From contig JAGRKS010000098.1 of assembly GCA_020442185.1 (NCBI GenBank), forward strand, positions 1 through 49,535: a stretch of 49,535 nt of DNA, written 5' to 3'. Below the pieces are notes generated by a model. It was not told where the DNA came from, searched no databases, and saw nothing but the letters and a program-made list of their open reading frames with translations. The position numbers were made by a program, and so were the translations under genes. This stretch comes from Hyphomicrobiaceae bacterium (GTDB lineage: Bacteria; Pseudomonadota; Alphaproteobacteria; Rhizobiales; Hyphomicrobiaceae). Shown one piece after another: positions 74 to 22,303 of this stretch. Position 1 is the stretch's first letter. The number at the start of each line of letters is the position of its first letter.

Positions 74-658
74 TCAAGCCTTGGCCGCTGCGTTTGGATC
101 GCCGGCCCGCCATGCGTCGAACTTCTCCATCAACCAGCCCCAGGCTTCCTCTTCGCGCGGGCCAGCCGTCTTCGAGATCGCGATCTGATGATAGGCGAGT
201 TCCGTCTCGACCTTCTCGGGCGGCAGCATTTTGAGGCGTGTCGCGAGAACAGCGGCCTCGATGACGGCCGCCTGCGCGCGGTTGTACCCGGCCCAGACAC
301 GGTGGTTCGCCTCATGAACCACGCGACAGCGGAAACGCGGCCTCATGTCGTCGTCCTCGACGGAATCAACCTTCAGTTCCCAATGTGATGCGGCCGCCTC
401 CAGCACGGCGCCATCGCCGCGTTCGGCGCGTTTCAGCGGCCAGTCGCGCCGGCCCGTCACACAGCCGGCGAACAGGCGGACGTCGTCGGTGTGGTTGGCG
501 ATCGCGACACCGCTGACGAGCAGGTTGTCGAGCGTGCGCGACGGCTTGAACGGCGCGATGATCCACGATTGCCCGTCCTGGATCAGCCCCAACGGCGCGA
601 TGTGGACGTCCCCATCGAGGCTCCGGGTCGTCACGATGGTCTCGACGATGAAAGGCAT
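74..658 (-). CDS. DUF447 family protein, C1-cofactor gene cluster
   Basis: 194 residues, starting MPFIVETIV. It matches the DUF447 family, a flavin-reductase-like split-barrel family known mostly from methanogenic archaea and from bacteria that use tetrahydromethanopterin; the exact reaction is not established. Visible features are the early segment with a conserved 'APLGL' run and an Asn-rich motif near residue 55 (ANHTDD). No signal peptide or membrane segment is seen, so it should be cytoplasmic. It is the last gene of the minus-strand operon, 42 bp behind the dihydropteroate-synthase-like gene, which supports a role in making or handling methylofuran or dephospho-H4MPT. Family assignment is good; function is inferred from context only. 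Confidence 0.8.
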   Translation of the reverse strand: MPFIVETIVTTRSLDGDVHIAPLGLIQDGQSWIIAPFKPSRTLDNLLVSGVAIANHTDDVRLFAGCVTGRRDWPLKRAERGDGAVLEAAASHWELKVDSVEDDDMRPRFRCRVVHEANHRVWAGYNRAQAAVIEAAVLATRLKMLPPEKVETELAYHQIAISKTAGPREEEAWGWLMEKFDAWRAGDPNAAAKA

Positions 659-700
659 TGGGTTTTCCCTGGTTCGTTGATTGGCGGCGGACGCGAAAGC

Positions 701-2278
701 CTAGGCCGGCTTCGGCTTGCCGTCCTGGCGCTTGCGACCGATGCGCTTGACGCCATCCGGCTTGTCGCCCAGGCGATCGCCGACGCCCGCTGCGTCGCTC
801 GCGCGCTCAGGCGTATCGGCCTGCGTGCCGCGCGCCACATGTCGCTCGTCGGCGGCTGCCCGGCGTACTTCTCGCTCCAACGCCTGCGACTTCGCTTTGG
901 CCTTCAGCGTCTCGCCCTCGAGAGCGTGGCGCGTCAGATCCTCGGCTGCCTTGTCCGCCGCCACGCCCCAATCGAGCGGTTGATCTTGAACGTAGCGCTT
1001 GCCCAGCCGCCAGGCCACCTCCGCCTTGGCCAATTCATAGCCAAGATAGAACGCGTGCGAAGCGTCGTCGTCGACCGCCAGCCGCGGATAGAGGTCGAGC
1101 GGCGAGACGGATGTGTGATGACCGTCGCGATTGTAGATGTGGACGCCATCCGTCGATGCTTCGATGCGGAAATTGAGATCGCGCACCGCGGCGGCGCTCT
1201 GGGCGATGGCGGCGGGGTCTTGCGGAAACGGCGTCAGCTCGTGCAACGACAACAGTCCGCCGCCGTAACCCTTGGGCAGCGCACCGTCGTCATGCGCGCG
1301 GTACATCAGGCGGCGCGCGGCATCGTGCTCCTCGATCGTGCGGCGGGTGTGCGGCGACACCTGCACGATAAGGACGTTGCGGATGCGCAATTCGGAGCAA
1401 ATGCCGGCGAGCATGGCCGTCACGCCCTGGCTGTCGGCATCCGTTAGTTCGGTCAGGTTGCCGGTGCCCATCAAGATTTCGACATCGGGACGCAAACGGC
1501 GCAGCTCCGCATACCGCTCGAGGGATGCCGTGAATCCGAAGTGGATCGGATCGAGTACGGGATCGGCAATGTGGGCGATGCCCTTCGCCGCCGCCATGTC
1601 GATGGCGCGCAACAACGATGCGAGATCGCCATGCGGTCTCGGCACGAGGATCGGCACTGAGGCGGTTCCGGCAATGGCCCCTATGGTCGCTTCGTCGAGG
1701 CTCAAAACGAAATCGGCGCCGGCCTTGGCACCACGCTCGAGTTCGGCCGGGTCGCCGCTGTCGACACTGACGGTCAGACCTTCGCGTTTCAGGGCAGTGA
1801 TCGTCTGCTCGAGGTGGGGGAACGGCGTATCGGGCTGGCAGCCAATATCGACGACATCGGCACCGGCCGCCTGGTCACGCAGCGCCCGCGCCACGAGCTG
1901 ATCGACAGTGAAGTTCGGGGCTTCGACGATTTCCGCGAAGATCCTGAGGTCGTGGCGCGAAAAATCAGGTGGCTTGCCGCCGCGTCCGAGATACTGCGGA
2001 ATATCGATGATCTCATCGGGTCCGCGCACGAAGGGCACGCCGAAATGCTCGGTGAGCGACGCCAAATCCATGCGCGAACGCCCAGGCACGATCACGCGGT
2101 CGGCGCCTTCGAGCGACGAAAGGCGGTTCTTGACGATCGCTTCCGTCATCAGGGCGGCAACCTTGATGCCGATGTTCGCGACCGACCAGGCCCCGTCGGC
2201 GAGCCCCGCATCATGAAGCGTTTTCGCGAGCCGCTCCTCGGCGAGCCGGCCGGTCAGAAACAGCAACTTCTCGGCCAT
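701..2278 (-). CDS. Dihydropteroate synthase-like protein (DUF6513 plus TIM barrel), H4MPT biosynthesis candidate
   Basis: 525 residues from the ATG at 2278 (MAEKLLFLTG). The open frame continues upstream but that extension is Arg/Pro-rich and overlaps the preceding gene, so I reject it. Residues 1-130 form the small N-terminal domain typical of the archaeal/methylotroph dihydropteroate-synthase-related family. A TIM-barrel part follows with VDIGCQPDTP (near 150), VSVDSGDP (near 180) and MGTGNLTELTDAD (near 290), echoing the pterin-binding motifs of DHPS. The C-terminal ~60 residues are charged and low in complexity. Such proteins are found with H4MPT genes and are thought to build the pterin-arylamine unit of (dephospho)H4MPT; this is inferred here, not proven. 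It lies 67 bp after mfnE. Confidence 0.82.
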   Translation of the reverse strand: MAEKLLFLTGRLAEERLAKTLHDAGLADGAWSVANIGIKVAALMTEAIVKNRLSSLEGADRVIVPGRSRMDLASLTEHFGVPFVRGPDEIIDIPQYLGRGGKPPDFSRHDLRIFAEIVEAPNFTVDQLVARALRDQAAGADVVDIGCQPDTPFPHLEQTITALKREGLTVSVDSGDPAELERGAKAGADFVLSLDEATIGAIAGTASVPILVPRPHGDLASLLRAIDMAAAKGIAHIADPVLDPIHFGFTASLERYAELRRLRPDVEILMGTGNLTELTDADSQGVTAMLAGICSELRIRNVLIVQVSPHTRRTIEEHDAARRLMYRAHDDGALPKGYGGGLLSLHELTPFPQDPAAIAQSAAAVRDLNFRIEASTDGVHIYNRDGHHTSVSPLDLYPRLAVDDDASHAFYLGYELAKAEVAWRLGKRYVQDQPLDWGVAADKAAEDLTRHALEGETLKAKAKSQALEREVRRAAADERHVARGTQADTPERASDAAGVGDRLGDKPDGVKRIGRKRQDGKPKPA

Positions 2279-2345
2279 GACCTCGGTCCTCGGACGGCCG
2301 CGCCTGGTCCGTGGCAGCCGCGTCAGTATTGAGCCTGCGTGACGG

Positions 2346-3080
2346 TCAGCCGCGCGGCGACGGCATGTTGCCGGTGCCGGCGGCAAGGCGGCGGGCGCCG
2401 CGGCGCGCGCGTTCTGCACGCCCGCCCGTGCGGCGCAGTGCCGACGGGTGCGGTGCCACTGGCGACGCCAGGCAGGCGCGCGCCAGATCGGCCTCCTCGC
2501 CCGGGCCGAAGATGCGGAAGGAAAGCCGTGCGCGCTCGACCACGTCGGCGAACGTCCGATCGACGATGCCGTCGGCCGCAAGTTCCGCCGCCGAGGGTCC
2601 GTCGATGACGCAGCGCGACTTGACGAGATAGACGGCCTGAAGCCGCAGCCGCTCGGCAAGACGAGCGGCCAGACCATCGGATGTAACCGACCAGTCGGCT
2701 GGTATCTTGGTGTCGGCCACGCTCAGACGCAACGGCAGCCAGACCGGAATGCGGTTTGCCGCCAGCGCCTGACGGATCTCGGCCAGCGTCTCGACGGCGA
2801 CGAAACGCACTTGCATGTCCTGCAGCATTACGCCCATCTGGTGCATGGCGAGGATGGCCATCGTGTGCGCCGCCCGATCCGACACGTCGTGGTGTGCCTG
2901 GACATGACGCACCTCGTCGGCGAAGCCGCCGCCTCCCGGCACAACGACAACCGGGCGGCGCGCCCGGGCAATCGTCGCGACGATGCCCTGCAGTCGCTTT
3001 CCACTGATCAACGATCCGCCGATCTTCACGACGACAGGCGACACCTTGCGACGCTCGCGGCTATCAGCGATGGCAGTCAC
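2346..3080 (-). CDS. mfnE: Amino-acid-kinase family protein, MfnE-like (aminomethylfuran phosphate kinase)
   Basis: 244 residues. The N-terminal KIGGSL (19-24) and VVPGGGGFADEVR (47-59) are the phosphate-binding glycine loops of the amino acid kinase fold, and VTSDGLAARLAERL (near 130) is the usual nucleotide-site helix. In methanogens MfnE phosphorylates 5-(aminomethyl)-3-furanmethanol phosphate on the way to methanofuran; methylotroph homologues sit, as here, with mfnB. The start overlaps the folB stop by 4 bp (ATGA). The last ~35 residues are Arg/Ala/Gly-rich, unlike the family core, and may be a disordered tail. Alternative: another small-molecule kinase of the same fold; the mfnB linkage favours MfnE. 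Confidence 0.8.
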   Translation of the reverse strand: MTAIADSRERRKVSPVVVKIGGSLISGKRLQGIVATIARARRPVVVVPGGGGFADEVRHVQAHHDVSDRAAHTMAILAMHQMGVMLQDMQVRFVAVETLAEIRQALAANRIPVWLPLRLSVADTKIPADWSVTSDGLAARLAERLRLQAVYLVKSRCVIDGPSAAELAADGIVDRTFADVVERARLSFRIFGPGEEADLARACLASPVAPHPSALRRTGGRAERARRGARRLAAGTGNMPSPRG

Positions 3081-3499
3081 TCTCTCTCACGTCTCAATGG
3101 GCGGACGATCTCGACACCGACGGCCGCCGGACCACGCTCCAGCTTTTCAATGCGCACCCTGACGCTTGCGATGCGCGCGTCCGCGAGGCAATGGGCGGCG
3201 ATCTTCTCCGCCAGCGTCTCGACCAGATTGATGTGTCCGGCATCGACGATTGCTCGGATGCCTTTCAGGATATCATCATAAGAGGGGACTTCCGCAATCT
3301 CGTCGTGTAGCGCCAGACCCGATTGACCGAGTTCGGCCTCGACGGTGAAGCCAACCTTCTGGGTCACCCCCTGTTCCTCGTCGTAGACGCCGATGTGGAT
3401 CGGCAGGACGAGATCGCGCACGAAGATGCGGTCGCGCGGCGTGTCGGGATCGCGCTGGCGTTGCACGGCGCGGCTTGCAAGTATCGTCATGTCCGTCAT
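3077..3499 (-). CDS. folB: Dihydroneopterin aldolase family protein
   Basis: 140 residues. After a ~22-residue N-terminal extension the FolB fold is clear: RIFVRDLVLPIHIGVYDEE (24-42), with the conserved glycine-tyrosine turn and acidic residue, a central YDDILKGIRAIV segment, and the NLVETLAEKIA helix that supplies the catalytic Glu. FolB releases glycolaldehyde from dihydroneopterin to give 6-hydroxymethyl-dihydropterin, the pterin needed for both folate and H4MPT. Placement between mfnB (24 bp upstream) and mfnE (4-bp overlap) suggests a copy devoted to the C1 carrier, but it could be the only folB of the cell. Confidence 0.88.
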   Translation of the reverse strand: MTDMTILASRAVQRQRDPDTPRDRIFVRDLVLPIHIGVYDEEQGVTQKVGFTVEAELGQSGLALHDEIAEVPSYDDILKGIRAIVDAGHINLVETLAEKIAAHCLADARIASVRVRIEKLERGPAAVGVEIVRPLRRERE

Positions 3500-3523
3500 G
3501 ACCGGTGGTCCTCCCAGCCGGTT

Positions 3524-4336
3524 TCACCGGCCTGTCATCTTGTCCCGAGCGCCTATCGTCTTGTCCCGAGCAAACCTGTCGCCCGAAACTGCGCCGATCG
3601 CGCGGCGCACGGCGAGCACGCTATCCCGATCGATCCCACGCTCGCGTTCGTTGCCCGAGCATAACGCGCCGCGAAACCCGATGATATCGGGATCGAGCTC
3701 TGCGATCTCAGGGATATGCCGGAGGCGAAGCGCGCCTGCAAGCCCCACGAACATGTGCGCGGCTCTCGCTGCCGCAACGAACGACTGGAGTTGGGCCCGC
3801 GTTGCGACATCCGTGAGTGCACCCGAGCGCTTGTCGGCGGTGTCCAGCATGACGCCCACAAAGCCCGCCGCAGGCAGCCGCGCGATCAGCGAAACGTCCG
3901 GATCGCGATCGGCGAGCAGGACGGCGACGCGCCGCCCGGATGCCACTGGGGACCGCGTCAGGTGCGCCAAGAATTCGAGGCCATCGCCCGGAGGAAAGAA
4001 GCCGACCTTTACGAGATCCGCTCCCGCGGCCGACATCGCGGCAACCTGAGCCAGGATCGCGTCCGGCTGATCGATGGTCAAATTGCCCGTGGTCGCGCTG
4101 AGCGTCAGGCCGGGCGGCAACACGCGCCGGATGTCCCGGACGGCGGCGACGGGTAGAGCGCCCAGCGCGCCATCGGCGGCGTTCTTTGCGTCGATCACGT
4201 CCGCGCCGGCTGCCGCGGCGATATCCGCCTCGGCGGCGGACGTCACACTGGCGAGAAATCGGGGACGGGCGGCCCGTGACCAGCTGAAACCTGGGCTCAC
4301 GGCTTCCATCGAGGTCACTGTTTCAATCGCTGTCAC
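3524..4336 (-). CDS. mfnB: (5-formylfuran-3-yl)methyl phosphate synthase (methylofuran biosynthesis)
   Basis: 270 residues. The protein has the MfnB (former DUF556) signature: VIDAKNAADGALGALP at 48-62, where the Lys of DAKN corresponds to the Schiff-base region of the methanogen enzyme, ADLVKVGFF at 107-114, a GVMLDTADK segment near 160, and a C-terminal IIGFRGALCSG phosphate-binding turn. MfnB condenses two glyceraldehyde-3-phosphates into the furan precursor of methanofuran. It is ~30 residues longer than methanogen homologues, with the extra at the N terminus and C-terminal tail. Its ATG overlaps the stop of the ABC ATPase by 4 bp, so it is translationally coupled to the transporter genes, which is unusual. 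Confidence 0.88.
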   Translation of the reverse strand: MTAIETVTSMEAVSPGFSWSRAARPRFLASVTSAAEADIAAAAGADVIDAKNAADGALGALPVAAVRDIRRVLPPGLTLSATTGNLTIDQPDAILAQVAAMSAAGADLVKVGFFPPGDGLEFLAHLTRSPVASGRRVAVLLADRDPDVSLIARLPAAGFVGVMLDTADKRSGALTDVATRAQLQSFVAAARAAHMFVGLAGALRLRHIPEIAELDPDIIGFRGALCSGNERERGIDRDSVLAVRRAIGAVSGDRFARDKTIGARDKMTGR

Positions 4337-5052
4337 GTCGCGCCGAAAATCCGCTGCTGCTCGTTGCGCACCAGGTTGCGATCGGCGCGGTCACTCGGCG
4401 CCAGTCCAACTTGGGCATCCTCGAGGACTGTCGCAGGCGTGCCGCCCATGCGCAAGATTCGCGTACCGAGCGTCACGGCTTCTGTTCTATCGTGGGTCAC
4501 GAACAGGACAGTCGTCGGCCGTCGCGACCACAAGTCGATCAGCAATGCACGCAGATCACGTGCTGTCGGATCGTCGAGCGAAACGAACGGCTCGTCCATC
4601 AGCAGCAGATCGGGCTCGCCAACGAAACCACGGGCCAGCGCCACCCGCCGCTGCATGCCGAGCGAAAGCCGCTCGGGATAGACGTCGGCTGCTCCGTCGA
4701 GCCCGACGCGCGTCAAAAGATCCGGGATCGAGGCGACACGTGGATCGCCATCGGGAAGCGCCAGCGCAACATTCTCGAATACGGTGCGCCATGGCAGCAG
4801 GCGCGGGCTCTGGAATATGTAGGTTACGGCCTGCTCCGGGGGATCGAAGACGACACGGCCGGCATAGTCGCGATCGAGGCCAGCGATGATGTTGAGCAAG
4901 GTCGATTTTCCGCAGCCGGACGGGCCTGTCAGGATCACGAACGATCCGGCCTGGACAGCGAGATCGATCGGCCCGAGCACCGGTTGCGGTGCACGGCCGG
5001 CGACGGCCGGCCAGGTCTTGCCGCCGAGATTGACTTTCACCACCGTCGTCAT
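4333..5052 (-). CDS. NitT/TauT-family ABC transporter ATP-binding protein
   Basis: 239 residues from the ATG at 5052 (MTTVVKVNL), which overlaps the permease stop by 4 bp; the longer open frame upstream is only a shadow of the permease. The Walker A GPSGCGKST is near residues 40-48, the Q-loop YIFQSPRLLPW near 80, the signature is the variant LSLGMQRR rather than LSGGQ, Walker B LLLMDEPFVSLD follows, and the switch is THDRTEA. The 'SPRLLPW' Q-loop is typical of nitrate/sulfonate/taurine-type importers. It powers the importer formed with the permease at 5049-5846 and the binding protein at 5827-6819. Substrate unknown. Confidence 0.9.
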   Translation of the reverse strand: MTTVVKVNLGGKTWPAVAGRAPQPVLGPIDLAVQAGSFVILTGPSGCGKSTLLNIIAGLDRDYAGRVVFDPPEQAVTYIFQSPRLLPWRTVFENVALALPDGDPRVASIPDLLTRVGLDGAADVYPERLSLGMQRRVALARGFVGEPDLLLMDEPFVSLDDPTARDLRALLIDLWSRRPTTVLFVTHDRTEAVTLGTRILRMGGTPATVLEDAQVGLAPSDRADRNLVRNEQQRIFGAT

Positions 5053-5846
5053 CGACGCCACCTGTTGGCGCGCGCCTCGAGCGGCTGAAGGATACCGACC
5101 TCGATGATCTGGACGACGACGATGAAGGCAACCGCATAGGCCAGGATCATCGGCACGTCGAAGAGCTGGAAGGCGACGTGGAGTTGATGGCCGACGCCGT
5201 TGGAGCGGCCGAGCAGCTCGACGACAAGCACGATCTTCCACACGAGTGACAGCCCCGAACGGGCCGCCGCCGCAAAGAACGGCGCGAGTTGCGGCAGCGT
5301 GACGTGGCGCAGCGTCCGCCACCATCCGAACCGGTACATGACCGCCATCTCCGAGAGGTCGCGCGACAGACTGCGCGCACCCTCGCGGACCGTGACCGCG
5401 ACGTTCGGAATCTTGTTGATCGCAACCGCCGTGATCGCGGCAACTTCCGTCAGACCGAACCAGACGTAGCACAAGATGATGATGACCAAAGCCGGCAGGT
5501 TGAGGAAGAAGATCAGCCAGCTGTCGAAGAAGCGGTCCGCCACCTTCAGCCGGCCAAGCGCCAGTCCGATCGCGGAACCGATCAGCATCGCGAGCACGAA
5601 GCTGACGACGACGCGCGCCAGCGTTGCCCCGACATGGAGAAGCAGCTGTCCGCTCTCGAACTCGATATGCACGGCCTCGAGGACGACCAGCGGCGATGGA
5701 AAGACACGGCTCGCGATGACGAGTGCCGCGATCTGCCAGACGCCAAGCAATGCCAGGAGCGATCCGAGCGACCACACCAGCCGGGAGCGGCGCGCCAGGT
5801 CGACGAAGCCTGGTTTGAGCAATGCCTTATTGCTTTCGAGCGCCAT
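5049..5846 (-). CDS. NitT/TauT-family ABC transporter permease
   Basis: 265 residues from the ATG at 5846; an ATG five codons earlier (5861) is also possible, and neither has a strong Shine-Dalgarno. About six hydrophobic segments can be read, the first at LVWSLGSLLALLGVWQIAALV. The cytoplasmic EAA-type loop is visible as EMAVMYRFGWWRTLRHVTLPQLAPFF (inner part near 165-190). It forms the membrane channel of an importer with the flanking ATPase (4-bp overlap) and binding protein (~20-bp overlap). Being inside a cofactor-synthesis operon it may import a precursor or a metal/cofactor-related compound, but the sequence does not show the substrate. Confidence 0.9.
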   Translation of the reverse strand: MALESNKALLKPGFVDLARRSRLVWSLGSLLALLGVWQIAALVIASRVFPSPLVVLEAVHIEFESGQLLLHVGATLARVVVSFVLAMLIGSAIGLALGRLKVADRFFDSWLIFFLNLPALVIIILCYVWFGLTEVAAITAVAINKIPNVAVTVREGARSLSRDLSEMAVMYRFGWWRTLRHVTLPQLAPFFAAAARSGLSLVWKIVLVVELLGRSNGVGHQLHVAFQLFDVPMILAYAVAFIVVVQIIEVGILQPLEARANRWRR

Positions 5847-6819
5847 CGAACAGCTTTGCATCGAATGTGGTGCTGCCGATCAGCTCCTTGCCGCCCTGCT
5901 CGACGAGAAGATCGAACAGTCTCTTGGCGGCGGCGGTGTGCGCATCGCTCCAGGGCTTCGGTATGCCGGCGCGATAATAGGCCTTGAGGGCGAAGAACTC
6001 GGGATCCGTCTTCGCCCGCATCAACGGCCGGATCCGGTCGAATGCCTCCTCCGACGTCGCGAGCACGGTGTTGCCGGCGTCGACCGCCTCGAACAGCGCC
6101 TTAAGTTCGGCAGCCTTCTTGACCGACGTCTCTTCCCGCCAGACAAAGCCGACGAGCGGCGGCGCCGGTTCGATCCCGAGCTTCTGGAACATGTCGTCGA
6201 CCGCCAGCAGCGGCTTGAAGCCGGCACCCTCGAGGCGCGCGGCGAAGGTCCAGAAATTCAAACACGCATCGAGCCGGCCGTTGCGCAATTCCTCGGCGAC
6301 GAGCGGCGCGGCGCCGAAGACAGGCTCGACCATCTCCGCGATGTCGCGGCCGAGAACACTGCGCGAATAGGCGCGCAGCACGATCCAGCTCTTGTCGATT
6401 GCCGACCCGGCCACACCCAACCGCTTGCCCTCGAGGTCCTTGAGCGACGTGATCGGCCCGTCCTTCTTCACCATGATCGAGCCGAGCGAGGACGAATAGG
6501 GACGGAACAGCAATTTCTGGCCAAGGCTGCGCTGGCGCATCGCCCACGTCCAATCGCTGACGATGACATCGGCATCACCCGACAGCAGCGCGATCGGCCC
6601 AGCCTGGTTGGTCGCGACCTCGATTGTCTCGATGCCGACGCCGGCCCGCTCCGCCAGCTTCTCGGCCTTGATCGTCTCGAGCAGCCAGTTCAGCGATCCG
6701 AACTTCAGCGATGCGAGCCTGAGCGAGCCGGCTGCGGCGTGCGCGTCGGCGAACGGTCGCAGCATCGCGGCCGTCACCGCGGCTCCCGAAATGGAGACGA
6801 ATTTTCGTCGGTCGATCAT
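5827..6819 (-). CDS. ABC transporter substrate-binding protein (NMT1/TauA type), probable Tat substrate
   Basis: 330 residues. The N terminus MIDRRKFVSISGAAVTAAM has a twin-arginine motif (RRKFV), a short hydrophobic stretch and an Ala-rich cleavage region (ADAHAAA), so export as a folded protein by Tat is likely. The mature part has the two-lobe pattern of NitT/TauT binding proteins: KFGSLNWLLETIKAEKL, a SGDADVIVSDW segment near 85, and LEGKRLGVAGSAIDKSWIVLRAY near 130. Its ATG overlaps the stop of the DUF2380 gene by 4 bp. Substrate unknown; relatives of this sequence occur beside PQQ-alcohol-dehydrogenase genes in methylotrophs, which is inference from context. Confidence 0.88.
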   Translation of the reverse strand: MIDRRKFVSISGAAVTAAMLRPFADAHAAAGSLRLASLKFGSLNWLLETIKAEKLAERAGVGIETIEVATNQAGPIALLSGDADVIVSDWTWAMRQRSLGQKLLFRPYSSSLGSIMVKKDGPITSLKDLEGKRLGVAGSAIDKSWIVLRAYSRSVLGRDIAEMVEPVFGAAPLVAEELRNGRLDACLNFWTFAARLEGAGFKPLLAVDDMFQKLGIEPAPPLVGFVWREETSVKKAAELKALFEAVDAGNTVLATSEEAFDRIRPLMRAKTDPEFFALKAYYRAGIPKPWSDAHTAAAKRLFDLLVEQGGKELIGSTTFDAKLFDGARKQ

Positions 6820-7490
6820 TTAGCGTCTCCGGCGGTCAGCAGTTTGCGCTCGGCGAGGTAGCGTATGCCGCGCAGCCATGCCTCGTCCGTGCTGCCCTGG
6901 ATTGTGGTCGACATCACGGATGTCAGTTTTTGTGCCTTAACATCGCGCAGGTAAAGGTTGAAGTTGAAAAGCAGATCGGAAAGCTTCTCGACGGTGGCGA
7001 TCAGGGCAAACTCAGCGCCTGCTTTCGTGGCGATGTCGTCCTCGCAGCCATTGCATTTGCTGATCGGTGCTTTTTCCGCGAGATCCGCCGCGAACATCGC
7101 TTGCGGTACCAGTTCGTAGCGCCCATCCGCGGCGATCCGCTTGGCAAGTGCCGCAGAGATCGTCGCAAGGCGCTCGGTCTCGACGTCCGACGGGCCGGTC
7201 GGCAGCCCCATCGGCCCGCCCATTCCGTACATCGAAGCATTCTGCGTCGCATCGATCATCTCGAACGGAAAGAAGATCAACCGCGGCGCGGCCCCGGCTG
7301 CTGACGCAAATGTGATCGATGAGACCAGGATGGCCGCGGCGGCAAGGGCAGCCAGGCCGCGGTGACTGGCAAGCGCCCGCGCGCTGCCTTCCCTGCCATC
7401 CCGAAGGCCCGCACAACTACGACGCGCCGCCGGGTCCGCCTTGTCCATAATGTCTGTCTCAAGCGTCATTGCGGCGTCCTTCATTCGCAT
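6816..7490 (-). CDS. DUF2380 domain secreted protein, first gene of the operon
   Basis: 224 residues; ATG codons also exist at 7484 and 7469, so the start is uncertain by a few residues (a GGAG precedes 7490/7484). A basic N-terminal region is followed by a hydrophobic segment AALAAAAILVSSITFASAA ending near residue 67 in an AxA-type signal cleavage site. The mature part begins PRLIFFPFEMIDATQNASM and matches DUF2380; it has a CNGCEDD motif (CxxC) near residue 142 and a C-terminal DEAWLRGIRYLAERKLL helix. Function is not known; it appears next to PQQ/methylotrophy transport genes. It heads the nine-gene minus operon and is coupled to the binding protein by ATGA. Confidence 0.8.
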   Translation of the reverse strand: MRMKDAAMTLETDIMDKADPAARRSCAGLRDGREGSARALASHRGLAALAAAAILVSSITFASAAGAAPRLIFFPFEMIDATQNASMYGMGGPMGLPTGPSDVETERLATISAALAKRIAADGRYELVPQAMFAADLAEKAPISKCNGCEDDIATKAGAEFALIATVEKLSDLLFNFNLYLRDVKAQKLTSVMSTTIQGSTDEAWLRGIRYLAERKLLTAGDAK

Positions 7491-7924
7491 CTACTCCGAC
7501 TTCATCCGGTGACCGGAGGCGCCCGAGTTCTGCGGCGTCGACCTTTTCGCTTTCACTGGCGACGACGCCCGCATCCGCCTCGTTCCGGTGTCGCGAACGA
7601 TTTCGCCCAAGCATTGGATCGCTCGAGACTGAAGGCGTTCTGGCACCCTGTCTCTGCGCGGCCATTCGTTGACCCTCGGGGGCGTTCCCGGCGGTATACA
7701 CCTTCGTTTTGCGCTTGTCCCCCGGCGTATTGTAACTATGTTACACACAAAATGAAGCCACTGGGAGATGTGAACGCATGCCGGGAGTAACCTCGCCGTA
7801 CGGTCACCAGCCGAGACATCGCTCACCGGGAGATGTCCGGGCGCGACATCGCGCGACCGGCAAGGGCGCATGGGACGCCGGGCGGGCACCGGGATCGGGG
7901 ACGGCGTCTCGGGGAGAAGCAGTC
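7491..7924. other. 434-bp divergent control region between the mfn operon and the lut-like cluster
   Basis: No convincing gene. It separates the minus operon (start 7490) from the plus cluster (start 7925), so it should hold both promoters. The clearest structure is a perfect 15-bp palindrome at 7731-7745 inside an A+T-richer stretch (about 7705-7760). Confidence 0.6.
7731..7745. promoter_or_regulatory. Perfect palindrome TGTAAC-TAT-GTTACA, candidate operator
   Basis: Six-base arms with a three-base spacer, in the A+T-rich part of the divergent region, 180 bp upstream of the plus-strand start at 7925 and 241 bp upstream of 7490. The shape suits a dimeric regulator. No regulator gene is in the window. 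Confidence 0.45.
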
Positions 7925-9220
7925 ATGACAGACGGAAGTCTCACCCGAACAGAGCGCACCGCGTCTGCCCTTTACCGGTTGTTGCTCGCTTTCGCGGCGA
8001 CGGCCGCGGTCGCGTTCGCTTCAATGCCTCTCGCATCCGCCGGTGGTGCTGCGCCCGCGGCCCCCGAAGCATCCGCGACGGCAAAGCCTGGTGTCGTGAC
8101 CATCCCGATCATCCTGGCGCGCGAGCGTATCGACCGGCTGCCGCCATTGTCGCTCCTCGATCAGCGCCCCGCCGACGACGGCCTTGGCGGCGCCAAGCTC
8201 GCGATCGACGACAACAACACCACGGGCCGCTTCATGAAGCAGGCGTTCGTGCTCGACGTTGTGGAGAATGCGGACCCGGCAGCCCTCATCGCCGCGGTCA
8301 CCGCGAAGGTGAGTGCCGGCGCCGGGTTCGTCGTCGCCGACGTCGCACCTGACACGTTGCTCAAACTGGCGGACGCCCTCGCCGGCAAGCCGGCCGTCAT
8401 CTTCAACGCCGGAGCACCCGACGACCGGTTGCGCGAAGAGGACTGCCGCGCAAACGTCAAGCACAGCGCACCCTCACGCTCGATGCTCTCGGATGCGCTG
8501 GCGCAATACATGGCCGTCAAGCGGTGGCGGCGATGGTATCTGATTGTCGGCGAACGCCCCGAGGACAAGCTCTATGCCGAAGCGATGAGACGCTCGGCCA
8601 AGCGCTTCGGAATGAAGATCGTCGAGGAGCGCGAATTCAAATATGAAGTCGGCAGCCGCCGCGCCGATGGCGGCTTCGAGCAGATCCAGCAGCAAATCCC
8701 CTCCTTCCTGCAGAACGCAGCCGAGCACGATGTCGTCGTGGTTTCCGACGAAGCCGAAGTGTTCGGCGACTATTTCCCCTATCGCACCTGGGAACCGCGG
8801 CCGGTGATCGGCACGGCGGGACTTTATGCGACGTCCTGGCATCCGGCAGTGGAACTTTGGGGCGGCACGCAGTTCCAGAACCGCTTCAAGCGGCTCAACA
8901 ACCGCAACATGACGGCGCTCGACTACGATGTCTGGACGGCGGTGCGCTCCGTCGGCGAGGCGGCGACGCGCAAGCGCTCGGGCGACCCTCTTACACTCAT
9001 TTCCTACATGCTCACGCCCGAATTCGAAATCGCGGCATTCAAGGGCCGCAAACTCACCTATCGCGATTGGAACGGCCAGTTGCGCCAGCCGCTGCTGGTC
9101 ACCACCGCCAAGTTGCATGTCACCGTGTCGCCGCAGCCGGAATTCCTGCACCAGTATTCCGAACTCGATACGCTCGGCATCGACAAGCCCGAAACTAAAT
9201 GCACCGCGTACAAAAAATGA
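7925..9220 (+). CDS. ABC transporter substrate-binding protein, PQQ-dependent alcohol dehydrogenase system (LutA-like)
   Basis: 431 residues from the ATG at 7925, preceded by GGAGAAG; the open frame extends 49 codons upstream without a ribosome site. A signal peptide spans about residues 15-40 (LLLAFAATAAVAFAS...ASAGG). The mature protein looks like the TIGR03863 family of periplasmic binding proteins tied to PQQ-alcohol dehydrogenases: VVTIPIILARERIDRLPPLS, LDQRPADDGLGGAKLAIDDN, and an EDCRANVKHSAPSRSMLSDAL segment. In Methylorubrum extorquens a protein of this kind (LutA) serves lanthanide uptake. The beta-propeller, ATPase and permease downstream form one transport set. Metal specificity is inferred. 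Confidence 0.85.
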   Translation: MTDGSLTRTERTASALYRLLLAFAATAAVAFASMPLASAGGAAPAAPEASATAKPGVVTIPIILARERIDRLPPLSLLDQRPADDGLGGAKLAIDDNNTTGRFMKQAFVLDVVENADPAALIAAVTAKVSAGAGFVVADVAPDTLLKLADALAGKPAVIFNAGAPDDRLREEDCRANVKHSAPSRSMLSDALAQYMAVKRWRRWYLIVGERPEDKLYAEAMRRSAKRFGMKIVEEREFKYEVGSRRADGGFEQIQQQIPSFLQNAAEHDVVVVSDEAEVFGDYFPYRTWEPRPVIGTAGLYATSWHPAVELWGGTQFQNRFKRLNNRNMTALDYDVWTAVRSVGEAATRKRSGDPLTLISYMLTPEFEIAAFKGRKLTYRDWNGQLRQPLLVTTAKLHVTVSPQPEFLHQYSELDTLGIDKPETKCTAYKK

Positions 9221-9345
9221 CGGTGCGGGTGAAAAGGCGGATCGTCCCGGCGCCGTCGTTCTTGTGAACCGCTCGATCATCCGTGCTCGGCGAGCACCAT
9301 CCGCGACACCGATTGAGCGATACGAAAAGATTCTGGAGAGCAAGC

Positions 9346-10338
9346 GTGAGACAGACGAAAAACGTGGGAATATTCGCGGCCCTGCTGGCCGGCCTCGCCA
9401 TGATGGCGGCTGCGGCCACACCGGCAGCTGCCTATAAGGTGTTCGTGTCGAACGAGAAGGAGAACACCGTCTCCGTCATCGACAGCGAGACACTCGCCGT
9501 CGTCCACACGATCAAGACCGGTGCCCGGCCGCGCGGCATCACGCTGACAAAGGACACCAAGTGGCTTCTCGTATGCACCAGCGACGACAACCGGATCGAA
9601 GTGTTCGATTCCAAGACCTACGAGCATGTCAAGAATTTGCCGTCAGGCCCTGACCCCGAACTCTTCGCCTTCCACCCTTCCGGCAACCCGCTCTACATCG
9701 CCAACGAGGACGACAATCTCGTCACCGTCGTCGACATTCATAGCGACAAGATCCTCGTCGAGATCCCGGTTGGCGTCGAACCCGAGGGCATGGGCATGAG
9801 CCCCGACGGAAAGGTGCTGGTCAACACCTCCGAGACGACCAACATGGCGCATTTCATCAACACCGAGACGAACGAGATCTTCGACAACGTGCTGGTCGAC
9901 ACCCGCCCCCGCGTCGCCGAGTTCACCGCCGACGGGTCCCAGGTCTGGGTCAGCTCCGAGATCGGCGGAACCGTCACCGTGCTCGAGGCCGCCACCCGCA
10001 AGCAGCTCGCCAAGATCAAGTTCGAAATCCAGGGCATCACGCCGGACGCGATCCAGCCTGTCGGCGTGCGCATGACGAAGGACGGCAAGTGGGCATTCGT
10101 AGCACTCGGCCCATCGAACCGCGTCGCCATCGTCGATGCCAAGACATTCGAGGTCGTCAAGTACGTCCTCGTCGGCCAGCGCGTCTGGCAGCTTGCGCTA
10201 ACGCCTGACGATAAACTGCTGTTCACAACGAATGGCACCTCGAACGACGTGACGGTGATCGATGTCAATCGCCAGCGCGCGGTCAAGTCGATCAAGGTCG
10301 GCCGCTATCCCTGGGGTGTCGTCGCTGCACCCTTCTGA
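9346..10338 (+). CDS. PQQ-dependent catabolism-associated YVTN beta-propeller protein (LutD-like)
   Basis: 330 residues from the GTG at 9346, chosen because CTGGAGAG lies just upstream and a signal peptide (VGIFAALLAGLAMMAAAATPAAA) then begins at once. The mature part is a string of ~42-residue blades: YKVFVSNEKENTVSVID, HTIKTGARPRGITLTKD, LYIANEDDNLVTVVDI, VEIPVGVEPEGMGMSPD and so on, matching the TIGR03866 propeller. It is a periplasmic non-enzymatic propeller consistently found with this ABC system; in M. extorquens the equivalent is an exported YVTN protein of the lanthanide-uptake cluster. It sits 125 bp after the binding protein and 120 bp before the ATPase. Confidence 0.85.
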   Translation: MRQTKNVGIFAALLAGLAMMAAAATPAAAYKVFVSNEKENTVSVIDSETLAVVHTIKTGARPRGITLTKDTKWLLVCTSDDNRIEVFDSKTYEHVKNLPSGPDPELFAFHPSGNPLYIANEDDNLVTVVDIHSDKILVEIPVGVEPEGMGMSPDGKVLVNTSETTNMAHFINTETNEIFDNVLVDTRPRVAEFTADGSQVWVSSEIGGTVTVLEAATRKQLAKIKFEIQGITPDAIQPVGVRMTKDGKWAFVALGPSNRVAIVDAKTFEVVKYVLVGQRVWQLALTPDDKLLFTTNGTSNDVTVIDVNRQRAVKSIKVGRYPWGVVAAPF

Positions 10339-10458
10339 TGCCGACCCCATCCAGGACAGGCGCTCCGCCAGCAAGGGCGTCGCATCAAAGAGCCGTGGTT
10401 GGTGCTCCGACCGACCGCTGCTATGAAAATCGCCACGAGGCAACAATGAAGGCCTGCG

Positions 10459-11238
10459 ATGCCCACGCGTGAACATTCAGCCGGACACGACGTCACGCCG
10501 GCCCTCGTCGTCGACGGCGTCAGCCATGCCTTCGGCGACAAGACCGTCCTCGACAACGTGTCGCTGACGGTTCCGCATGCCAGCTTCTCGGTGCTTCTCG
10601 GCCTCAACGGCGCCGGCAAGTCGACCTTGTTTTCCCTTGTTACCCGCCTCTACGACAACGTCAGCGGCGATATCCGCATTCAGGGGCACGATGTCCGCCG
10701 CAGCCCATCGCTCGCCTTGCAGCAGCTCGGCGTCGTCTTCCAAAGCCGCACGCTCGACAGCGACCTGACGCTTTCCCAGAACCTGCTCTACCATGCGGCG
10801 CTGCACGGCATCCCCCCGCGCGAGGCGCGTCGCCGCGCGATCGAAGCGCTGGAAACGGTGCAGCTCACCGAACGTGGCGGCGACCGGGTTCGCAACCTCT
10901 CAGGTGGGCAGGCGCGTCGCGTCGAGATCGCGCGGTCGCTGCTCCACCGGCCCAATCTGCTATTGCTCGACGAACCGACGGTCGGTCTCGACATCGGCTC
11001 GCGCGAGAGCGTGCTCGAGATCGTCCGCTCGCTCGTCACGCAACGGGGACTTGGCGTACTCTGGGCCACCCACCTGATCGATGAAATCTCATCGAGCGAC
11101 AATATCGTACTGCTGCACAAGGGGCGGATCCTCTACACCGGATCGGTGGCGGGCATGCTCGAAGCCGCCGAGGTAAGCGACCTCAGATCCGCATTCCGCC
11201 GTTTGACCGGCACCGACGAGGAGATGGCAGCGGCATGA
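10459..11238 (+). CDS. ABC transporter ATP-binding protein, PQQ-alcohol dehydrogenase system (LutE-like)
   Basis: 259 residues. Walker A GLNGAGKST is at 50-58, the Q-loop VVFQSRTLDSDLT near 92, the signature LSGGQARRVEIARS near 143, Walker B LLLLDEPTVGLD near 163, and the switch His in WATHLIDE near 200. It belongs to the exporter-like ABC-2 group (TIGR03864) paired with the permease immediately downstream, whose start overlaps this stop by 4 bp. Together with the binding protein at 7925 this resembles LutE/LutF of the lanthanide-uptake system; the direction of transport is not obvious from sequence since ABC-2 systems are usually exporters. A tiny frame (10446-10472) overlaps the start and may aid coupling. 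Confidence 0.9.
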   Translation: MPTREHSAGHDVTPALVVDGVSHAFGDKTVLDNVSLTVPHASFSVLLGLNGAGKSTLFSLVTRLYDNVSGDIRIQGHDVRRSPSLALQQLGVVFQSRTLDSDLTLSQNLLYHAALHGIPPREARRRAIEALETVQLTERGGDRVRNLSGGQARRVEIARSLLHRPNLLLLDEPTVGLDIGSRESVLEIVRSLVTQRGLGVLWATHLIDEISSSDNIVLLHKGRILYTGSVAGMLEAAEVSDLRSAFRRLTGTDEEMAAA

Positions 11239-12107
11239 GTGTCGATAGTCTTGGCACCGCGAGACCGTCAGCCGCCCCCGTCGAGGCGACGCAACGGCTC
11301 GGGCTCGGCGCCTACATCGTCTGCTTCCGTGGCATCGTCTGGCGCGAGGTGTTGCGCTTCCTGCATCAGCGCGAGCGGTTCCTTTCAGCGCTCGTCCGGC
11401 CACTCGTCTGGCTGTTCATCTTCGCGGCCGGCTTCCGGCAGGTCCTCGGCATCTCCATCATCCCGCCCTACGAATCCTACGTTCTCTACGAGGTCTTCGT
11501 AACGCCCGGCCTCGTCGGCATGATCCAGTTGTTCAATGCGATGCAGTCGTCGCTATCGATGGTCTACGACCGCGAAACCGGCGCCATGCGTACCCTGCTC
11601 GTCAGCCCGTTCCCGCGATCGTATCTGCTGATTTCCAAGCTCGTCGGCGGTGTCGCGGTTTCGCTTCTGCAGGTCTACGTCTTCCTCGGGATTGCCTACT
11701 TCTGGGAAATCGAGCCGCCGCTGATCGGCTATGTCACCGTGCTGCCGGCGCTCATTCTCGCGGGGCTGATGCTCGGTTCGCTCGCCTTGTTCATGTCGTC
11801 GGTCATCCGCCAGCTCGAGAATTTCGCCGGCGTCATGAATTTCGTCATCTTCCCGATGTTCTTCGCCTCGTCCGCGCTCTACCCCCTTTGGCGCGTTAAG
11901 GAATCGAGTCCGCTGCTTTATGAGATCTGCCGCATCAACCCGTTCACGCACGCCGTAGAGTTGATCCGCTTCGCGCTCTACGGACAGATCGACTGGTCCT
12001 CGCTCGCGGTCGTCGTCGGCTGCACGATCGTGTTCCTCGGTGCGGCGATCTTCGCCTATAACCCGTCGAAGGGCCTGATTGCCCGGCGCGGCGGCCCGGG
12101 CGGTTAG
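11235..12107 (+). CDS. ABC-2 type permease, PQQ-alcohol dehydrogenase system (LutF-like)
   Basis: 290 residues with about six membrane segments, for instance LVWLFIFAAGFRQVLGI near 55, LISKLVGGVAVSLLQVYVFLGIAYF near 130-155, VLPALILAGLMLGSLALFM near 170-190, and a final LAVVVGCTIVFLGAAIFAY. The ABC-2 signature region YDRETGAMRTLLVSPFPRSYLL is near residue 112-133, and the LENFAGVMNFVIFPMFFASSALYPL stretch is typical of TIGR03861 permeases of PQQ-alcohol systems. It forms the channel with the ATPase upstream (ATGA overlap). The exported-protein gene follows after 26 bp. Confidence 0.9.
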   Translation: MSVDSLGTARPSAAPVEATQRLGLGAYIVCFRGIVWREVLRFLHQRERFLSALVRPLVWLFIFAAGFRQVLGISIIPPYESYVLYEVFVTPGLVGMIQLFNAMQSSLSMVYDRETGAMRTLLVSPFPRSYLLISKLVGGVAVSLLQVYVFLGIAYFWEIEPPLIGYVTVLPALILAGLMLGSLALFMSSVIRQLENFAGVMNFVIFPMFFASSALYPLWRVKESSPLLYEICRINPFTHAVELIRFALYGQIDWSSLAVVVGCTIVFLGAAIFAYNPSKGLIARRGGPGG

Positions 12108-15101: not shown

Positions 15102-15107
15102 ACAGGC

Positions 15108-17847: not shown

Positions 17848-18693
17848 CTAAAGCCGTGGTGCGGTAATTTCGTTGTTGTTCTCGTCCAGCAGCGGCACGC
17901 CGTAGTCGATCAGCACCTTGTCGATATCGCCCTGGCGTTTCGCGATGATCGCGTTGAGCTGACGCTTCCAGACGTCATCACCCTGGCGAACGCCCATGGT
18001 GATGCGATAGGCCATGCGCGGGCCGACGGACTCCTTGACGAGCGGTCTGACGATGAGGTCTTCGCCGCCACGTTCGGCGAAATAGCCGGCGATCGGCCCC
18101 CATAGTATTCCGGCCGCCACGTCGCCCGAGCGTATGTCCTCGATCATTCGCTCGGCGGGCGATTCGTACCGACGGTCGACCATCAGCGAATAGGGCTTGG
18201 CGTGGCCCATCAGGCCGAGCCGCGCCATGATGTCTCCGGGCGGCGTGCCGGCGATGATTCCGATCCGCTTACCCTTGATGCGTTCGTCATCGAGACTGTC
18301 GACACCGTCGAGCCCTTGCCCCTTGCGGTAGACGATCGCGTACGTCGAACGGTAGTAGTGGTTGGTATTGAGAACGAGTTCATCGCCCTGTGCGTAGCCG
18401 ATGACCACGTCGCAGGCCTTGGCGAACAAGGTTCGGCGGATGAAACCCGTGGCCTGCGGGAACCACGTGTACTCGACCTTCACCTTCATCTCGTCGGCGA
18501 CGATATCGGCGATCTTGTTTTCGAAGCCCTCACCCTTCTGGTTCGAGAAGGGCATGTTGGCGGGATCGGAACAGACGCGCAGAACACGCCGGTTGACGAG
18601 ATCGGCACGCTGCCCCTCGGCGGCTTCGGCGACTGTCACAGCACCGAAACCGGCCAAGGCTGCAAGCAGCAACAGAAATGACGACTTACTCAC
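17848..18693 (-). CDS. xoxJ: XoxJ, periplasmic binding-protein-like partner of XoxF
   Basis: 281 residues from the GTG at 18693, which overlaps the xoxG stop (GGTGAGTAA arrangement). This start puts a signal peptide (VSKSSFLLLLAALAGFGAVTVAEA) exactly at the N terminus; the upstream frame is inside xoxG. The mature part has LRVCSDPANMPFSNQKGEGFENKIADIVA (near 38-66) and CDVVIGYAQGDELVLNTNHYYRSTYAIVYRKGQ (near 93-125), matching the quinoprotein-dehydrogenase-associated solute-binding family that includes MxaJ/XoxJ. XoxJ is thought to help activate XoxF rather than to serve transport. Operon order xoxG-xoxJ. Confidence 0.9.
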   Translation of the reverse strand: MSKSSFLLLLAALAGFGAVTVAEAAEGQRADLVNRRVLRVCSDPANMPFSNQKGEGFENKIADIVADEMKVKVEYTWFPQATGFIRRTLFAKACDVVIGYAQGDELVLNTNHYYRSTYAIVYRKGQGLDGVDSLDDERIKGKRIGIIAGTPPGDIMARLGLMGHAKPYSLMVDRRYESPAERMIEDIRSGDVAAGILWGPIAGYFAERGGEDLIVRPLVKESVGPRMAYRITMGVRQGDDVWKRQLNAIIAKRQGDIDKVLIDYGVPLLDENNNEITAPRL

Positions 18694-19261
18694 CGAAGCA
18701 CGCCTTGTCGTATTCCTTGGCGGCCGCCGGCTTCTCGTCACGTCCAGCTGGGCGACCGCGTCCGATGGCGCCGTCCGCGCGGCCCTTCAGGTACACGTAG
18801 ATATCGTCGATGTAGCACATGACGTTCTTGTTATCGCCAAGCGCAGGCATGACGCTCTCGCCGCCACCCGGCATATGGACGATCCGGCCAGAGGCGACCA
18901 CGCCGACGAAATCGCCATAGCTCATCGTCTTCAGCGACTCCTTCAGAGCCGGAGCATACGTCGAACCCTCGCCCTCGGGGCCATGACAGACATGGCATTC
19001 CGAGTGATAGCGCCGGAAGCCCGAGTAGGCATACCAATCGATGATGCCGTCAGGCTTGACGTGATATGTCGGATCGCCGTCGGGCGTCATCCATTTGCCG
19101 TCTTCCGGCTTGGCGCCTTTCTGTGTCTTCGAGCCATCTTCCAACGTAACCATTTCAGGCCCGTTGGCCTGAGCCGGAACGGCTGCGAGCAGCCCCATGC
19201 CCGCCAACAGTGCGGCTGCCGAAATCGCAAGGGTATCTAGTCTCGTCACGCGCTTCCTCAT
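18686..19261 (-). CDS. xoxG: XoxG, cytochrome c electron acceptor for XoxF
   Basis: 191 residues. A signal peptide covers residues 1-32 (LAISAAALLAGMGLLAAVPAQA). The single haem-binding motif CHVCH is at 89-93, and Met138 in SVMPALGDN is the likely distal ligand. A CYIDDIYVYLKGR helix follows and Cys149 and Cys188 in the tail could form a disulphide. This is the layout of the XoxG (cytochrome cL-type) family that takes electrons from the PQQ of XoxF. It is on the same strand as xoxF but 665 bp downstream, behind a strong stem-loop, so it probably has its own promoter. It overlaps xoxJ. Confidence 0.93.
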   Translation of the reverse strand: MRKRVTRLDTLAISAAALLAGMGLLAAVPAQANGPEMVTLEDGSKTQKGAKPEDGKWMTPDGDPTYHVKPDGIIDWYAYSGFRRYHSECHVCHGPEGEGSTYAPALKESLKTMSYGDFVGVVASGRIVHMPGGGESVMPALGDNKNVMCYIDDIYVYLKGRADGAIGRGRPAGRDEKPAAAKEYDKACFGE

Positions 19262-19557
19262 TCGTTTCTGCTTTTGTTATGCTCAAACCGAAGCTGATGG
19301 AACTTCATGCCGACATTACGGCACTTGGATACGCGCGGTTCCATGTTCACGCGCATGGTTCATCACACTGTGGTGAATGCCAATATTGTCGACGTCACGT
19401 TCATCCCTTGGCCTTGGTAAACGAACCCTCGCATGCCTGACGGGTGAAGCCCGACGCTCTTGGCCGGCACACCCGCGCTCGCCTGTCTCGACCGGCACAT
19501 CGGCACCGGATCGCCTTCTCCCGCATCACACCGATCGTTGCACACACCGACCGCAGA

Positions 19558-19632
19558 ACTGGCGACGACCATACTGGCCACCGCAGGACTGGCCACCGCA
19601 GGACTGGCCACCGCAGGACAGGCGACCTCTGG
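19558..19632. repeat. Five 15-bp tandem units (three perfect) between xoxF and xoxG
   Basis: Perfect units of ACTGGCCACCGCAGG at 19573-19587, 19588-19602 and 19603-19617, flanked by degenerate units at 19558-19572 and 19618-19632. Fifteen bases is a multiple of three, so all frames through it give five-residue repeats. Confidence 0.85.
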
Positions 19633-19874
19633 TCGGGCGGCACCGATTGCGCAGGCCGGCGTCGCTGCCTCGTCGCCGTGAGCGCCAACTCCGCTCGGAC
19701 GGCCAGGCCCGGTGCTCTGCCCCGCGGCTCGGACCAACTCAATTCTGTCGCGCTTCATTTGCCTGCCGAGCGCGGATTGTCGCCATCAGCCGATTGCTTC
19801 CAATGCCCGTTGCCCATCGCCACACTTTGGCGGTCCAACCGTATCGGAAACCATCGACCTCATCACAATGGAAA

Positions 19875-19899
19875 CCGGCGCGGGGGGACCCCGCGCCGG
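19875..19899 (-). terminator. xoxF terminator-like stem-loop
   Basis: CCGGCGCGGGG (19875-19885) pairs perfectly with CCCCGCGCCGG (19889-19899), a 3-nt loop between; on the minus strand it is followed by TTTCC. It lies 27 bp beyond the xoxF stop and should end or attenuate the xoxF transcript before xoxG. Confidence 0.75.
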
Positions 19900-19926
19900 C
19901 ATTGTCGGGTCAGACGACCGAAGCCA

Positions 19927-21729
19927 TTAGGGCAGCGAGAAGACCGTCAGAACGCCACCGAGAGCGGTGTAGTTCTTGAGGCCAGCGTAGCCGCCGACTG
20001 CGCCCAGACCATCGTTCGGGTTCGTCAGGCCAGCTGCGAGACCGATGCCGGCCCAGCCACCGATGCCAGACAGGATCGCAATGTACTGCTTACCCTTGTG
20101 GGAGTAGGTCATGACATTGCCGATGATGCCCGAAGCGGTCTTGAACTTGAACAATTCCTTGCCGTCAGCCGGATCGACTGCCTTCAGGTAGCCCTCGAGG
20201 GTACCGTAGAAGACGACGTCGCCAGCGGTCGAGAGAGCACCCGACCAGACGGAGAACGGCTCAGGCTTCGACCAGACGATCTTGCCCTTGCCAGCGTCCC
20301 AGGCAATGAAGTTGCCCATGCCGCCATGGCTGTTCGGAGCCGGATACATGGACAGCGTGGCGCCAACGTAGGGCTGACCAGCCGTGTACGAGACCTTGAA
20401 GGGTTCGTAGTCCATGCAGACGTGGTTCGTCGGGACAAAGAAGAGGCCTGCCTTCGGCGAGAAGGTCGCCGGCTGCTGGTCTTTCGTGCCGAGAGCCGCA
20501 GGGCAAACGCCCTTCGTGTTCACGTCCGGACCGTTCTTCGCCGTCGAGTACTTGTCGACGACATAGGGGCGACCGTAGTTCGGCTTCGCCGGATCCATCT
20601 CGACGCCCGTCGTCCAGTTCACGACCGGGTCGTACTTCTCGGCAACGAGAAGTTCGCCGGTGTGGCGGTCGAGGGTGTAGGCGAGACCGTTACGGTCGAA
20701 GTGAACGGCGACCTTGCGGGCCTTACCCTTCACGTCGATATCAGCGAGGATGACCTCGTTGATGCCGTCATAGTCCCACTCGTCGAACGGCGTCATCTGG
20801 TAGGCCCACTTGGCCACACCGGTGTCGACGTCACGACCGAACAGGGTCATCGACCACTTGTTGTCGCCCGGGCGCTGTGCCGGGTTCCAGGTCGAGGGGT
20901 TGCCCGATCCGTAGTACATCAGGTTGACTTCGGGATCGTACGAGTACCAGCCCCAGGTGCAGCCGCCACCGATCTTCCACTGATCGCCCTGCCAGGTCTT
21001 GAGCGAGGAGTCCTTGCCGACCGGCTTGCCGAGCGACATGGTCTTCGCAGGATCGAACAGGATTTGATCGTCCGGACCGACCGAGTATGCGCGCCAGACC
21101 TTCTTGCCGGTGTTCATGTCGTAGGCTGTGACATGGCACTGCACACCGAACTCGCCGCCCGAGATGCCGACGATGACCTTGTCCTTGACCGGTAGAACGG
21201 TCGCGGTGTTGGTCTCGCCCTTCTTCGGGTCGCCGTTGACGGCCTTCCAGATCTCCTTGCCCGACTTTGCGTCGAGCGCGACGACCGTGGTGTCGGCCTG
21301 ATGCAGGAAGATCTTACCGTCGGCGTAGGCGAGGCCACGGTTCACCGTGTCACAGCACATCACCGGGATAACGGACGGATCCTGCTTGGGCTCGTACTTC
21401 CAGATGATCTTGCCTTCGGAGTTGAGGTCGAGGGCATAGACGATGTTCGGGAAGGGGGTATGCACCCACATCGTGTCACCGATCACGAGGGGAGACCCTT
21501 CGTGACCACGGAGAACGCCAGTCGAGAAGGTCCACGCGACCTTCAGATCCTTGACGTTGCTCTTGTTGATCTGGTCGAGTTTCGAATAACGCTGGTTAAA
21601 GTAGTCGCCCGTCTGCAGCACCCACTGGTTCGGGTTGCTGATCTGCTTCGCGACGTCATCGTTCGCCATGGCTGGCGAAGCGATGAAAGTCGTGACGAGC
21701 AATGCACTGGTGAGTGCACTTTTGCGCAT
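19927..21729 (-). CDS. xoxF: XoxF, lanthanide- and PQQ-dependent methanol dehydrogenase
   Basis: 600 residues, the usual length. A signal peptide covers ~22 residues ([18 protein letters not shown]). The vicinal Cys125-Cys126 disulphide ([10 protein letters not shown]) covers PQQ. Metal ligands are Glu193 (GGEFGVQC), Asn277 ([10 protein letters not shown]) and Asp319 with the extra Asp321 in EWDYDGINE; this D-x-D pair marks lanthanide enzymes, whereas calcium MxaF has Ala at the second place. Repeated W-docking segments ([20 protein letters not shown]) build the eight-blade propeller. It oxidises methanol (and probably formaldehyde) in the periplasm and gives electrons to XoxG. The sequence looks like clade XoxF5. 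A near-ideal Shine-Dalgarno at 21736-21743 suggests high expression. Confidence 0.97.
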
Positions 21730-22067: not shown

Positions 22068-22303
22068 CGACATTTCTGGAAAACAATTCTGACTTAGCGC
22101 GGTGGCGTGTGCTTTCTTGGCGGGAAGCGTCTTCGCAAATCTGTGATTGGCATTCACAACAGCGATCAGCGACCGTCCAATCGAGAAGATGGCGGCCCCT
22201 GTTCGGCTTCCGCGTCATCCTCCGCCGCGCTATCGATCGGCGAACGCGGTAAAGCCATTGGGCGGTTGGGTTGACGTCCTGCAGCACGGATGCGACGAGA
22301 AGA

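Follow-up and report, generated by a model that had tools for sequence, protein, structure and literature searches.

Gene content of the locus

The 49,535-nucleotide stretch of DNA analyzed here (hereafter the window) starts with a run of nine minus-strand genes at 74–7490, which lie about where the initial annotation had placed them and belong to the families it named, each with a Pfam match above the curated cut-off. The run faces a divergent lut/ped locus, and a xox gene group follows further along. The features are, by coordinates and strand:

74..658, minus, DUF447 protein (PF04289 and PF20766)
701..2278, minus, dihydropteroate-synthase-like (DHPS) protein (DUF6513; PF20123, 84 bits; TIGR00284, 190 bits, under the cut-off of 257)
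2346..3080, minus, mfnE-like gene for an amino-acid-kinase-family protein (PF00696; NF040622, 83 bits, under the cut-off of 300)
3077..3499, minus, folB-like gene (PF02152, 80 bits)
3524..4336, minus, mfnB, 4-HFC-P synthase (PF04476, 195 bits), start at GTG 4336 or ATG 4309
4333..5052, minus, ABC importer ATPase (PF00005, 94 bits)
5049..5846, minus, ABC importer permease, SsuC/TauC-like (PF00528, 86 bits), alternative start at 5861
5827..6819, minus, substrate-binding protein (SBP), PqqT-like by phmmer, Foldseek and invariant residues
6816..7490, minus, DUF2380 protein (PF11684, named DUF3280; 119 bits)
7491..7924, no strand, divergent intergenic region, by gene layout the likely site of the operon promoter(s)
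7925..12107, plus, divergent lut/ped lanthanide-type ABC locus, all members above curated cut-offs
17848..21729, minus, xoxJ, xoxG and xoxF (TIGR03871, TIGR03874 and TIGR03075, all above cut-offs)

The SBP, permease and ATPase are encoded together, as is characteristic of type I ABC importers (assigned by Pfam), and mfnB and mfnE are close together in a single run, as in bacterial methylofuran operons. The window MfnE appears to be a divergent form, given its score under the NCBIfam cut-off. The order mfnB-mfnE-DHPS-DUF447 is the same as in the archaeal-like H4MPT/methylofuran cluster of M. extorquens, where orf22 is mfnB and orf21 is mfnE. FhcD (FTR), the partner of methylofuran, is encoded at 31079–31993 of the window, and pqqC is present in the same genome, on contig C133.

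The initial annotation counted five ATGA overlaps within the run; we find four 4-bp overlaps (two ATGA and two GTGA), one overlap of 20 bp and three gaps. In the order of the genes from DUF2380, these are ATGA between DUF2380 and the SBP (6816–6819), 20 bp between the SBP and the permease (5827–5846, or 35 bp if the permease starts at ATG 5861), ATGA between the permease and the ATPase (5049–5052), GTGA between the ATPase and mfnB (4333–4336), a gap of 24 bp between mfnB and folB, GTGA between folB and mfnE (3077–3080), and gaps of ~67 bp between mfnE and DHPS and of 42 bp between DHPS and DUF447. The overlap that had been taken to tie the transporter to furan-ring synthesis, i.e., that of the ATPase with mfnB, thus lies at the claimed position if the GTG start at 4336 is used, and its letters are GTGA, not ATGA. 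An alternative in-frame start of mfnB, ATG 4309, leaves a 23-bp gap after the ATPase, and conservation among relatives mostly begins around residue 26. A start that yields the 4-bp overlap is available in 8 of 28 related loci; in the rest, the possible starts are 0 to ~200 bp beyond the ATPase stop codon. What the family conserves is the adjacency of the ATPase and mfnB, not the 4-bp overlap. Scanning for promoters yielded one candidate, against 1.0 expected from shuffled sequence, i.e., nothing above expectation.

The substrate-binding protein is a predicted homolog of PqqT

The best match of the SBP among PDB sequences is PqqT of Methylorubrum extorquens AM1 (PDB 9B1U, 9B1V and 9OOZ), with 37–41% identity and phmmer E-values of 7.6e-57 to 9b1u and 2.4e-56 to 9ooz. 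The match spans residues 32–315, i.e., the full mature protein, which is preceded by a Tat-like N-terminus (MIDRRKFV). The AlphaFold model (pLDDT 93.6) retrieves the same three entries, 9ooz, 9b1v and 9b1u, as the best Foldseek matches (E ~1e-32; TM 0.81–0.82 by query and 0.89–0.91 by target), clearly above every other PDB entry. The next ones, Thi5 and SsuA, have a TM of ~0.65; this is the level of likeness to the SsuA/TauA/NMT1-Thi5 binding proteins, which share the overall fold and the Pfam family NMT1 with the SBP but match it far more weakly than PqqT does. An importer for sulfonates, taurine or thiamine precursors was rejected, both fold and sequence being much closer to PqqT.

Four residues, D142, K143, W145 and W190, are invariant across 103 homologs of the SBP. 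K143 is the sole invariant lysine and aligns with Lys115 of the PqqT chain, which we take to be the published metal/PQQ-site lysine K142, assuming an offset of 27 residues for the signal peptide. Further points of likeness to PqqT are the essentially single copy (82 of 83 genomes have one match each, the exception being one gene split into two matches), the permease and ATPase partners in relatives, with the SBP-permease-ATPase order retained in most families carrying the SBP, and the company of XoxF. Sequence and modeled structure alike point to the SBP being a homolog of PqqT of M. extorquens.

PqqT is described as binding PQQ with a Kd of 50 nM and as aiding the recapture or uptake of exogenous PQQ (PMC12828617; PMC12124388); the primary sources cited in PMC12828617 are Ho and Cotruvo (Biochemistry, 2019) and Thompson et al. 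(PNAS, 2024). The metal affinities given there for the wild-type protein are micromolar (La, 6 uM; Ca, 64 uM), and the title of PDB entry 9B1V names PqqT with PQQ and Gd.

The identity to PqqT is only 37–41%, and in the SBP tree the window protein and PqqT fall in different clades; both facts count against PQQ as the ligand. Together with three changes at otherwise conserved sites that characterize the clade of the window protein (S42, A171 and G198), they could signify that this clade has shifted to another ligand, e.g., a metabolite resembling PQQ or a lanthanophore. The fully invariant residues, the four named above among them, are nevertheless all retained and the genomic company is unchanged, and we consider such a shift quite unlikely.

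The importer follows quinoproteins rather than methylofuran synthesis

Across 249 genomes of the order that were scanned for the SBP, mfnB (PF04476), XoxF and PqqC, matches were found in 83, 57, 69 and 91 genomes, respectively. The SBP is present in 64 of the 69 XoxF genomes (odds ratio 108), and 72 of the 83 SBP genomes carry pqqC. Conversely, mfnB is missing from 34 of the 83 SBP genomes, including 23 that have XoxF, so that the importer is not restricted to methylofuran-making genomes, and 8 genomes have mfnB without the importer. Among genomes from outside the Hyphomicrobiaceae, 29 from 13 families encode the SBP no more than 15 kb from xoxF, whereas a distance of 3.5 kb or less to mfnB was seen in a single one. 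The importer tracks quinoproteins, not methylofuran synthesis. The SBP also extends beyond the order, with 17 further genomes in a class-wide sample of 190.

Two observations weigh against the link to PQQ. The overall co-occurrence of mfnB and the SBP is strong as well (odds ratio 28), and this association persists in genomes without a strong XoxF match. Furthermore, 20 of 78 SBP flanks contain no quinoprotein, lut or relay neighbor within ~10 kb, although 3 of these 20 carry a glucose/sorbosone-dehydrogenase (GSDH) family gene.

One reading in the initial annotation was that the importer supplies a precursor or a metal needed for the C1 carriers; a precursor of methylofuran or H4MPT could be, e.g., tyrosine or tyramine, a furan or a pterin. 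Small aromatics are common ligands of NMT1-type binding proteins, which is compatible with such a role, and in all sampled genomes of the Hyphomicrobiaceae the importer and mfnB form a run that resembles an operon. Nevertheless, the PqqT-like SBP, the XoxF genomes with the importer and without mfnB, the mfnB genomes without the importer, and the separation of the two in most other families all contradict this reading, which we regard as extremely improbable and reject on the grounds of distribution and homology.

Importers in genomes without a pqqC match

The genomes G040, G080 and G115, all three from the same genus, have the importer and, directly behind its ATPase gene, a GSDH-family gene (PF07995); no match to pqqC or to a PQQ alcohol dehydrogenase was found in these genomes. 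The respective loci are L109:6644-10419, L115 and L119. The glucose/sorbosone-dehydrogenase family includes PQQ-dependent members, and these runs could possibly be PQQ-scavenging operons. Three other genomes without a pqqC match (G096, G161 and G183) encode a quinoprotein alcohol dehydrogenase ~3 kb or less from the SBP. The absence of pqqC carries less weight in some of these assemblies, which are fragmented, G040 and G080 being single-contig. Such genomes are compatible with PQQ scavenging that is unrelated to methylofuran.

The same loci bear on the idea that the cassette transports a lanthanide or a PQQ-lanthanide complex and thus provides a second lanthanide route beside lut. The cassette co-occurs with XoxF and adjoins the lut locus, and PqqT was crystallized, to go by the PDB title, with Gd in addition to PQQ. 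By the affinities given in PMC12828617, however, wild-type PqqT prefers PQQ to La and Ca by a wide margin, the cassette accompanies a GSDH gene in genomes that lack XoxF, and a dedicated lut locus is already there; we therefore view a lanthanide cargo as unlikely. Lanthanide ABC systems of the LutAEF and PedA1A2BC kind are represented in the same locus by the divergent neighbor at 7925–12107 (a binding protein matching TIGR03863, a propeller matching TIGR03866, an ATPase matching TIGR03864 and a permease matching TIGR03861), but the importer subunits themselves are not lut/ped homologs: TIGR03863, TIGR03864 and TIGR03861 are not among the matches listed for them, and a lut-type lanthanide importer was dismissed on this mismatch of families.

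Gene order among relatives

Three arrangements can be distinguished. In the first, lut, DUF2380, the importer and mfnB follow one another; the importer is immediately followed by mfnB in 10 of 10 sampled Hyphomicrobiaceae genomes and in a single genome from outside the family (G120), and the further Hyphomicrobiaceae loci compared all show the same arrangement. In one member of the family (G124, locus L061), the importer-mfnB adjacency is retained without the lut SBP, propeller or DUF2380 nearby; this genome encodes a diverged PQQ dehydrogenase, 49% identical to the window XoxF. In the second arrangement, which is that of 14 genomes from families f4, f23, f27, f42 and f50, lut and/or DUF2380 directly precede mfnB without the importer, which is encoded elsewhere in 13 of the 14, mostly beside xoxF. 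This group includes the genus closest to PqqT (f42/g85, 64–76% identity), and in Methylobacterium-like genomes, unlike the window with its importer genes between DUF2380 and mfnB, mfnB directly follows DUF2380 and the PqqT cassette is located elsewhere. In the third (Methylopila and relatives, Microvirga and others), lut is followed by the importer and mfnB is not behind it: in Methylopila and relatives, mfnB is on the other side of xoxF or more distant, and in Microvirga no mfn gene is present in the fetched flanks.

The 28 Hyphomicrobiaceae proteins form one clade of the SBP tree (SH-aLRT 99), with the G120 protein separate. The importer might accordingly have been inserted between DUF2380 and mfnB in this lineage alone, or the junction might be an older order that other lineages have lost. 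With either origin, the importer and the mfn genes become separated, each tending to stay near lut/xoxF. It had been proposed that the functional link would weaken if relatives kept the transporter and the mfn genes in unrelated places; this is what we observe outside the Hyphomicrobiaceae, whereas inside the family the adjacency is universal in our sample. Given this conservation, which extends to G124, some selection for co-expression of the importer and mfnB in Hyphomicrobiaceae is likely.

Proposed function of the importer

With the homology, fold, invariant residues, co-occurrence and gene order described above, we propose that the SBP-permease-ATPase cassette probably imports PQQ, the redox cofactor of XoxF, as an ABC transporter of the PqqT type, and belongs to the quinoprotein/lanthanide module. 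The exported SBP would capture PQQ in the periplasm, whether leaked, freed by enzyme turnover or external, and the permease and ATPase would move it into the cytoplasm, where it could supplement the cell's own synthesis (via pqqC). We infer that co-transcription with mfnB would pair PQQ recapture with the synthesis of cofactors for the formaldehyde made by XoxF, such that no transport of methylofuran or H4MPT precursors would be needed. These results favor the second reading in the initial annotation, a periplasmic methylotrophy function that is simply co-expressed, the function being PQQ/lanthanide-dependent methanol oxidation.

The universal adjacency with mfnB in the 10 sampled Hyphomicrobiaceae genomes sits less well with import of PQQ for XoxF, and so does an import route that leads to the cytoplasm when the known PQQ enzymes are periplasmic. 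Conceivably, PQQ import in Hyphomicrobiaceae might have become firmly tied to the synthesis of C1 cofactors, with imported cytoplasmic PQQ serving as a signal or as a resource through which the capacity for methylofuran/H4MPT is matched to how methanol oxidation in the periplasm stands, a scenario to which we give a slim chance.

Under the proposal of a PQQ importer, what could be supposed to be a methylofuran importer is recast as a PqqT homolog, i.e., a known kind of importer at a family-specific operon position. Almost every XoxF genome of the order carries an importer of the PqqT type, some without detectable pqqC among them. Adjacency in an operon at the level of one family can mislead on function if neighboring families go unchecked. 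The question is thereby sharpened to why PQQ that is used in the periplasm would be imported into the cytoplasm.

DUF2380 and other genes of the window

In many families, DUF2380 (PF11684) is encoded next to the lut binding protein, and a CxxC motif is conserved in its alignment. A profile search of PDB sequences gave no match; the predicted model (pLDDT 80) matches LpoB, GNA1162 and TolB in Foldseek (E 2e-6 to 1e-5). From this model of moderate confidence, DUF2380 is probably an exported protein with an LpoB/TolB-N/PelC-like fold.

Between the lut locus and xoxFGJ, a phosphonate-type (PhnD/PhnE/PhnC-like) ABC importer is encoded at 14175–16690; no such set is found beside xoxF in the compared loci. 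On the other side, xoxF is adjoined by quinoprotein relay metallohydrolase 2 (TIGR04559) and a SoxY-SoxZ fusion (22271–24410), both of which recur near xoxF in other families. In the segment 26270–31993, the genes for a PF10604 (MxaD-like) protein and for a YNCE propeller are followed by those for an amidohydrolase, FhcA-like to judge from its position, and for FhcD; homologs of the PF10604 protein and the propeller lie directly behind DUF447 in Methylobacterium-like genomes.
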